Below, piece after piece: positions 24,046 to 25,181 of a stretch of DNA of 34,270 bases. Below the pieces are notes generated by a model. That model was not told the DNA's origin. It searched no databases and saw nothing but the letters and a program-made list of their open reading frames with translations. Location of the stretch: positions 2,429,005 to 2,463,274 of the forward strand of contig NZ_JAUQYP010000001.1 in NCBI RefSeq assembly GCF_030586465.1, read 5' to 3'. Position 1 is the stretch's first letter, and each line of letters starts with the position of its first letter. The stretch comes from Actinotalea lenta (GTDB lineage Bacteria; Actinomycetota; Actinomycetes; Actinomycetales; Cellulomonadaceae). A program made the position numbers and the translations under genes.

Positions 24046-24120
24046 TGAGCCCCGCCCATCGGGCGCGCTGCGAGGACGGCGCTGCCGCAGCAGCCATGGC
24101 GCCCGAGGCGCGGACCGCGA

Positions 24121-24150
24121 TTGACACGGCGCGAGCCGGGTGTCTAGCGT
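24121..24150 (+). promoter_or_regulatory. Sigma-70-type promoter of the polycysteine-leader operon
   Basis: A consensus TTGACA at 24121-24126 is followed after 18 bp by TAGCGT at 24145-24150 (TANNNT). The predicted RNA start near 24157 gives a leader of about 32 nt before ATG 24189, with the strong GGGGAGGAGGGG ribosome site in it. Confidence 0.65.
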
Positions 24151-24188
24151 CCCGGCGACGGTCGACGTGCGTCCGGGGAGGAGGGGTC

Positions 24189-24242
24189 ATGACTGATCGA
24201 ATGCCGTGTGCTGCGCCCCTCTCCTGCTGTCGGTGCTGCTGA
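24189..24242 (+). CDS. Polycysteine leader peptide (17 aa), cysteine-sensing uORF
   Basis: The translated peptide is MTDRMPCAAPLSCCRCC followed by TGA, so five of 17 residues are cysteine and four of the last five are Cys. A strong GGAGGAGGGG precedes the ATG by a few bases, and a consensus promoter lies about 40-70 bp upstream, so it is the first ORF of the transcript. Polycysteine uORFs upstream of sulfur-metabolism genes are known in mycobacteria, where ribosome stalling at Cys codons during cysteine shortage relieves attenuation of the downstream gene. Here the downstream genes encode a thioredoxin-like protein and a DUF4395 protein. A hairpin starts at the stop codon. Confidence 0.78.
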   Translation: MTDRMPCAAPLSCCRCC

Positions 24243-24256
24243 GGGCGCAGCGCCCT
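24242..24256 (+). promoter_or_regulatory. Hairpin directly after the polycysteine uORF
   Basis: AGGGCG (24242-24247) pairs with CGCCCT (24251-24256) around the loop CAG. It begins at the last base of the uORF stop codon. The structural gene 43 bp further on has only a weak GGGA site, so stalling or termination at the uORF could alter its translation. Confidence 0.4.
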
Positions 24257-24298
24257 GCACCGCCCCGGCTCCACCACCTCCACCACCCTGGGACCGTC

Positions 24299-24736
24299 AT
24301 GATCTCTGTGCTCATCACCCTTGCCGTCGCCACCGGTGTCGGCCTGCTGCTGCGCCGACGGAACGGCCGCTTCCGCCGTGCCGTCTCGTCCTGGCCCGAC
24401 GCCCACCAGGCCGTGCCGGGCGCGGCCGTCACCCTCCTGCAGATCTCCGCCGAGCGCTGCGCCGTCTGCCCCCAGGTCGCCGCCACCCTGGGCGACCTCG
24501 CCGCGCGCACCCCCGGGCTCGCCCATCGGGAGATCCGCGCCGAGGACAACCTCGACCTCGTCCGTCGGCACGACGTCCTGCGCTCACCCACGGTGCTGGT
24601 CCTCGACGGCACCGGGGCGGTGGTCGCCCGGGCGTCGGGCGCAGTCACCGCCGACCAGGCATGGCAGGCGGTCGCACCGCTGCTCGCCACCTCCGGCACG
24701 CGCGATCTCGGGGAGGCTGCCCGTGCCCAGCGCTGA
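24299..24736 (+). CDS. Membrane-anchored thioredoxin-like protein (ThiX-type)
   Basis: A 145-residue protein. Residues 1-19 (MISVLITLAVATGVGLLLR) form one N-terminal membrane segment, followed by an Arg-rich loop and a thioredoxin fold. The redox pair is CAVC at 54-57 (AERCAVCPQV), and the cis-proline is RSPT at about 97. The CAVC sequence differs from the usual CGPC, and a Cys-x-x-Cys-Pro arrangement is typical of thioredoxin-like proteins paired with DUF4395 in actinobacteria. ATG 24299 is 57 bp after the polycysteine uORF; the longer frame starting at 24206 overlaps the uORF and is rejected. Its end overlaps the DUF4395 gene by 14 bp. Confidence 0.8.
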   Translation: MISVLITLAVATGVGLLLRRRNGRFRRAVSSWPDAHQAVPGAAVTLLQISAERCAVCPQVAATLGDLAARTPGLAHREIRAEDNLDLVRRHDVLRSPTVLVLDGTGAVVARASGAVTADQAWQAVAPLLATSGTRDLGEAARAQR

Positions 24737-25181
24737 CAACTCCCCGCGACAGACGCACGCCGGGATCGACCCGCGCGGACCGCGTGTCGGCGCCGTTGTC
24801 ACGAGCCTCCTGCTCGCATCGGTCCTGGTGCTCGGCGACCGCGCCGCGGGCCGCGCCCTGCTCGCGTTCGTGGTGGCCCTCTTCGTGGCCGGCGCGGCGC
24901 TCGGTCCGGCCCGGTCACCCCTGGGGCTGGTCTTCCGGCACCTGGTCGCTCCGCACCTCACCCCCGCCTCCGAGCGGGAGGACCCGCGCCCCCCGCGATT
25001 CGCCCAGGTCGTCGGGCTGCTGGTCACGGCGTCAGGCCTCGGCCTGGCCCTCCTGGGTGTGCCGATGGCACTGACCGTCGGCGCCGCGCTGGCGCTCGCC
25101 GCGGCGTTCCTCAACGCCGCCTTCGGCGTGTGCCTCGGCTGCGAGCTCTACCTGCTCGGGACCCGACTGCGGCGGGCGTAG
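24723..25181 (+). CDS. DUF4395-family membrane protein
   Basis: A 152-residue protein with two pairs of hydrophobic segments (about 23-62 and 95-147) joined by a hydrophilic loop with HLTPASEREDPRPPRF. The end carries NAAFGVCLGCELYLLG (C137, C140), the signature of DUF4395. The family function is unknown. In actinobacteria it is often found with thioredoxin-like and sulfurtransferase genes, so a role in sulfur transfer across or at the membrane is plausible. GTG 24723 lies inside the upstream gene end, with GGGGAGG 6 nt before it. It is convergent with the antiporter gene, only 7 bp away. Confidence 0.82.
   Translation: MPSADNSPRQTHAGIDPRGPRVGAVVTSLLLASVLVLGDRAAGRALLAFVVALFVAGAALGPARSPLGLVFRHLVAPHLTPASEREDPRPPRFAQVVGLLVTASGLGLALLGVPMALTVGAALALAAAFLNAAFGVCLGCELYLLGTRLRRA

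Follow-up and report, generated by a model that had tools for sequence, protein, structure and literature searches.

In the E. coli tna operon, tryptophan is sensed via the nascent leader peptide, and a ribosome that remains on the final codons of the leader ORF can block access of Rho to a loading site next to the stop codon. For cysteine, polycysteine upstream ORFs (uORFs) of mycobacteria are said to function as attenuators, reportedly in work by Canestrari from 2020. Cys leader peptides were predicted in Actinobacteria in 2005 (PMC1262725); that paper places them before cys operons of Mycobacterium and P. acnes and before cbs of B. longum, describes Cys codons grouped in runs close to the stop codon with no conserved terminator and possible Rho-binding motifs behind the ORF, and names the tna operon as a model. 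In mycobacteria, a Cys-ended small ORF also lies before cysA2, and attenuation is raised there as a speculation (Shell 2015, PMC4633059).

For a comparison with mycobacterium-like arrangements, 29 loci of the phylum were examined, 11 of them belonging to one family (f22). In 8 of these 11 loci, a thioredoxin-like gene (trx) is followed by a leaderless-type uORF (for example, VLTRLELALTKRRAVDLCRVAGCCCCCCSC) and then by a DUF4395 gene, and these eight loci have a sulfurtransferase start behind in every case and a DUF1416 start motif in seven. The Pfam names of the neighbouring genes were checked for a single locus (L153), whose sulfurtransferase gives a full-length match to PDB 3aax (563 bits). 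Because 3aax is presumably an M. tuberculosis protein, we take f22 to be the mycobacterial family. Cys leaders as a kind, and their tie to DUF4395, are thus already known: the preliminary description of the locus studied here had seen in it a lead on DUF4395 function, but this lead is not a new one because the leaderless uORF of f22 already precedes that gene.

Here, we analyse a Cys-ended uORF that precedes trx and DUF4395 genes in Actinotalea lenta (genome G000). The sequence comparisons show that this uORF is real and is kept in few species; most likely, it is a cysteine-reading attenuator. In the limited literature consulted, we found no description of the SD-led form with this peptide, of the inclusion of trx or of the recurrence of unlike leaders; among the papers listed for one very broad query, none dealt with Cys leaders in Actinotalea, which carries little weight.

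The leader region and the two-gene operon

The window is the whole stretch of 34,270 nt that was analysed. As the preliminary description had claimed, a Shine-Dalgarno (SD)-led uORF of 17 codons with a Cys-Cys-Arg-Cys-Cys-stop end is read in the sequence (Table 1). Its Cys codons are clustered near the stop codon of a short ORF before trx, as in Cys leader-peptide attenuators in general. Transcription is predicted to start near position 24157, giving a leader of about 32 nt before the uORF. A strict E. coli-type promoter scan of positions 24050-24350 found no promoter; the counterparts of the -10 element in three congeners read TACCGT (G015), TAGCGT (G001) and TACCGT (G009).

Table 1. Features of the leader and of the genes behind it (window coordinates)
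Feature	Position	Strand	Remarks
-35 element TTGACA	24121..24126	+	sequence; identical at the corresponding position of G015, G001 and G009
-10 element TAGCGT	24145..24150	+	sequence; TANNNT form, 18-nt spacer
SD of the uORF, AGGAGG	24179..24184	+	sequence; 4 nt 5' of the uORF ATG
uORF, MTDRMPCAAPLSCCRCC-stop	24189..24242	+	17 codons; 5 Cys codons, 4 in the last five
Inverted repeat AGGGC-GCAGC-GCCCT	24242..24256	+	sequence, at the uORF stop codon; putative role
C-rich, G-poor gap between uORF and trx	24243..24298	+	C 0.54, G 0.25; Rho may load here
Thioredoxin-like protein (trx)	24299..24736	+	145 aa; N-terminal hydrophobic stretch, CAVC motif
DUF4395 protein	24723..25181	+	152 aa; CLGC motif; start overlaps the trx end

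Pfam thioredoxin matches of the trx product fall below the cut-off, and a profile of four sequences matches solved thioredoxins with a best E value of 3.5e-11. The second protein matches PF14340 with an E value of 2.2e-36 (125.5 bits, curated cut-off 24.5); its CLGC motif is invariant across five sequences, and its predicted structure is a helical bundle (pLDDT 76). Because the neighbouring genes, of the Nramp-type transporter type upstream and the Na+/H+ exchanger type downstream, are both on the opposite strand, trx-DUF4395 looks like an isolated two-gene operon.

The gap between the uORF and trx is short, as previously described, but measures 56 nt to the trx ATG rather than 57 bp. Likewise, the observation that trx has almost no ribosome site of its own holds for the window sequence, CTGGGACCGTC-ATG. 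This weakness is not conserved: G015 and G001, the two closest relatives, carry CAGGA before trx. A strong SD at the uORF and a weak one at trx would also suit a translation enhancer, in which ribosomes loaded at the uORF reinitiate at the trx start and no amino acid is sensed. Leader genes have indeed been proposed in the literature as reinitiation helpers, and in Actinobacteria they are reported to be most frequent 10-11 bp from the gene. The gap found here is far from that peak, and an enhancer leaves it unexplained that mutually unlike uORFs in this position all have Cys codons at their ends. We therefore regard it as an unlikely explanation.

The uORF in congeners and constraint on its silent positions

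The genus of the window genome is represented by 19 genomes, 12 of which have a trx match; the locus of G013 is truncated where its contig stops. By pattern, the same uORF is found in two of the 18 other genomes, reading MTERRMPCAASLPSCRCC in G015 and MERRMSCAAPTPSCRCR in G001, at the same place and with corresponding promoter and SD sequences (SD GGAGGAGGAG in both). Their trx proteins share 57% and 56% identity with that of the window. Lack of conservation in relatives had been named as grounds for rejecting the proposal; instead, promoter, SD, ORF and position are all kept in these two congeners. One of the terminal Cys codons is Arg in G001, so that its end reads C-R-C-R. Among 221 genomes of the bacterial family, the exact uORF pattern occurs in three, all of this genus and each time before trx-DUF4395 (reversed control, 0).

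Other congeners have different short ORFs in the leader. G009 carries a VRAMCRCCA uORF behind TTGACA-N17-TACCGT, G017 a diverged uORF (MSRTTYGRRMSRAACLTGCCPR) that is similar in its second half and lies 227 nt before trx, and G002 a leaderless-type uORF (MPLVLVRRVHVDLLRTAGCLCRV) before trx-DUF4395. No such uORF was seen before trx in G003, G011, G012, G016 and G018.

Between G015 and G001, third codon positions are identical at 18 of 18 sites in the uORF and at 75 of 137 in trx (Fisher 4.9e-5), and the codon changes in the uORF comprise none that are silent and four that alter the amino acid. In the comparisons with the window, the corresponding values are 14/18 and 85/145 for G015 (p 0.09) and 14/17 and 74/133 for G001 (p 0.03). 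The identity of third positions in G015 and G001, with no silent change, suggests that the uORF is a cis-acting leader and not a peptide with a function of its own, a conclusion that comes mainly from one species pair. Were the peptide itself the active product, it would be a Cys-rich partner of the thioredoxin-like protein that binds metal or sulfur, in line with its five Cys among 17 residues and with the two CxxC-motif proteins encoded behind it. However, selection on a peptide is at odds with a set of four changed codons that all alter the amino acid, and with the unlike short peptides that occupy the same place in some relatives, and we consider a peptide function improbable.

Expectation by chance and distribution in the family

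None of 5,000 dinucleotide-shuffled versions of the upstream region contained an SD-led ORF with four or more Cys in its last 8 codons, and 26 contained one with two or more. The uORF is the sole example of the former kind in the whole window on both strands; one other SD-led ORF with at least two terminal Cys is present in the window, on the minus strand. Across the whole genome, the pattern of an SD and an ORF ending in TGY-NNN-TGY-TGY-TGA has a single match, the uORF (reversed control, 0).

DUF4395 is present in 98 of the 121 family genomes searched. Of 110 prepared loci, 91 had a trx gene, and 87, each from a different genome and each containing DUF4395, were tested for a uORF with at least two Cys in the last 8 codons together with either a leaderless-type promoter or an SD match of 5. 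Such uORFs were found at 8 of the 87 loci, whereas shuffling gave 0.47 on average and no more than 2 in any of 100 rounds, and the reverse-strand control gave none of 87; with at least three Cys required, five loci remained and the shuffle mean was 0.04. The eight comprise the MPCAA..SCRCC type (G000, G001 and G015, diverged in G017), VRAMCRCCA (G009), leaderless-type HVDL (G002) and VDLMR (G085), and G104, which is probably a chance match. Thus, Cys-ended uORFs before trx-DUF4395 are above chance but patchy in the family. That the uORF of the window is a chance ORF in a GC-rich leader, as might be thought from the 79 of 87 family loci that have no Cys-ended uORF by the survey criterion, is very improbable in view of the empty set of 5,000 shuffles, its retention, promoter and SD included, by two congeners and the eight family cases where 0.47 were expected.

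The uORF of G085 (L066; ...RRAFVDLMRTCTACCQPS) resembles the VDLCR leaders of f22. In one other genus, similar Cys-rich short ORFs with no clear SD lie before trx at L079 (G117) and L123 (G093), reading ...RCRACCCPVG and ...RCCRPLCCPAAR, respectively.

Putative mechanism, sulfur setting and relation to known leaders

The Cys-ended uORF before these redox-type genes, kept in a few relatives, is probably a cysteine-sensing switch. We consider it likely that the leader acts as an attenuator in which ribosomes gauge the cysteine supply and thereby control the trx-DUF4395 operon. In this model, a ribosome would initiate at the uORF, guided by its strong SD. With ample Cys-tRNA, it would complete the uORF and depart at the stop codon, and expression of trx-DUF4395 would stay low. 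With scarce Cys-tRNA, it would stall on the Cys codons before the stop and mask the start of the stretch behind the uORF; as a result, trx-DUF4395 would be expressed. The sequences show that the uORF exists, is conserved and exceeds chance expectation, and that its silent positions are constrained in one pair of relatives; translation of the uORF, ribosome pausing and the direction of the effect are inferred.

What the stalled ribosome would act on is less clear-cut. The preliminary description had placed a hairpin at the uORF stop codon. An inverted repeat does start there, and G015 and G001 have a similar one (GAGG(G)C-GCA-GCCCTC), but a working role for it is not supported: no terminator-like site, i.e. 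a G+C-rich hairpin with a U run, is found in positions 24050-24350, the leader folds no more stably than shuffles (z 0.11), and consensus folds of the three species reveal no excess of stability or covariation (z 0.25 and 0.82). In the mycobacterial type of attenuation, to which the preliminary description likened the locus, a paused ribosome would moreover free the trx start. When folding was computed around a ribosome footprint whose A site was set to the terminal C/R codons, the unpaired probability of the trx AUG region was 0.01-0.05 with the ribosome vs 0.05 without it in the window, 0.03-0.12 vs 0.04 in G015 and 0.22-0.30 vs 0.30 in G001. In other words, a paused ribosome does not open the trx start in the computed folds of the three species. 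Of the cysteine attenuation originally proposed, a real and conserved uORF in excess of chance therefore stands, but the role of the hairpin and the unmasking of the trx start are not supported by the computed folds.

The placement of the Cys codons immediately 5' of the stop and the composition of the gap are compatible with tna-like attenuation of the Rho type. In G015, G001 and G009, the corresponding stretch has C 0.54-0.55 and G 0.23-0.29, and in G002 C 0.44 and G 0.27; the C-minus-G excess of the gap in the window is unmatched in the 60-nt stretch before trx (not always intergenic) of the 87 family loci. A Rho-type effect over the C-rich gap is the slightly favoured possibility, to which we give somewhat less than even chances, and unmasking of the ribosome site, as reported for mycobacteria, is a slightly less favoured one.

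The window genome has no match to PF01507 (PAPS reductase/CysD type; 14 of 14 control genomes positive) and none to PF01077 (sulfite reductase type; 11 of 14 positive), and PF01507 is present in 3 of the 19 genomes of the genus. Because both are absent, the organism probably lacks assimilatory sulfate reduction by the usual enzymes. It has a CysK above the profile cut-off, and the next gene reads by eye as a serine acetyltransferase (cysE-like). Before cysK lies an SD-led short ORF with Cys near its end (VAYAPFGRPSSVRPCRRSCL; L182, about G000:C1:1804991-1805053, minus strand), a configuration that 2 of 2,000 shuffles reproduced. It is a second candidate Cys leader, and the genome may thus have several. 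Elsewhere in the genus, a leader of the ...VRRVHVDLLRT..C... type precedes a 2OG-Fe(II) oxygenase-type gene at seven loci (L140-L145 and L148), the gene family having been assigned by search for L145 and by eye for the other six, and the same type of leader precedes trx-DUF4395 in G002 (L147).

If the attenuator reading is true, Cys-codon leaders occur, in SD-led form, in the Actinotalea lineage as well, and control of this kind covers the thioredoxin-like gene in addition to DUF4395. Unlike Cys leaders that recur before the same genes make a stronger case than any single leader that Trx-DUF4395 has a part in the handling of cysteine or sulfur. More tentatively, we speculate that unlike Cys uORFs, SD-led or leaderless, have been gained repeatedly before trx-DUF4395 in one family, whereas mycobacteria have one before DUF4395, and that these genes may form a cysteine-economy module under recurrently selected pausing control, which in the window organism, lacking the sulfate-reduction enzymes searched for, may extend to cysK-cysE.

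With respect to known systems, the mycobacterial layout invoked in the preliminary description differs from the one found here. The mycobacterial uORFs are leaderless, whereas the uORF described here is SD-led and its promoter predicts a leader of about 32 nt, so that it is predicted not to start at the 5' end of the mRNA; they lie between trx and DUF4395 in 8 of 11 f22 loci, whereas here the uORF lies before trx; in the eight f22 loci they are followed by a sulfurtransferase and mostly by a DUF1416 start motif, whereas no sulfurtransferase follows in the window operon; and their peptides mostly have an R.VDLCR stretch with up to six Cys in a row, from which the window peptide differs. The leaders predicted in 2005 (PMC1262725) are alike in their Cys runs near the stop codon, in having no conserved terminator and in the possible Rho-binding motifs behind the ORF, but the genes controlled are different. 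As in tna, a ribosome at the end of the leader ORF might mask a Rho-loading stretch, although tna senses tryptophan and the role of Rho here is putative. What the locus has in common with the mycobacterial polycysteine uORFs is a short Cys-ended ORF that precedes a DUF4395-containing operon and is conserved in relatives.
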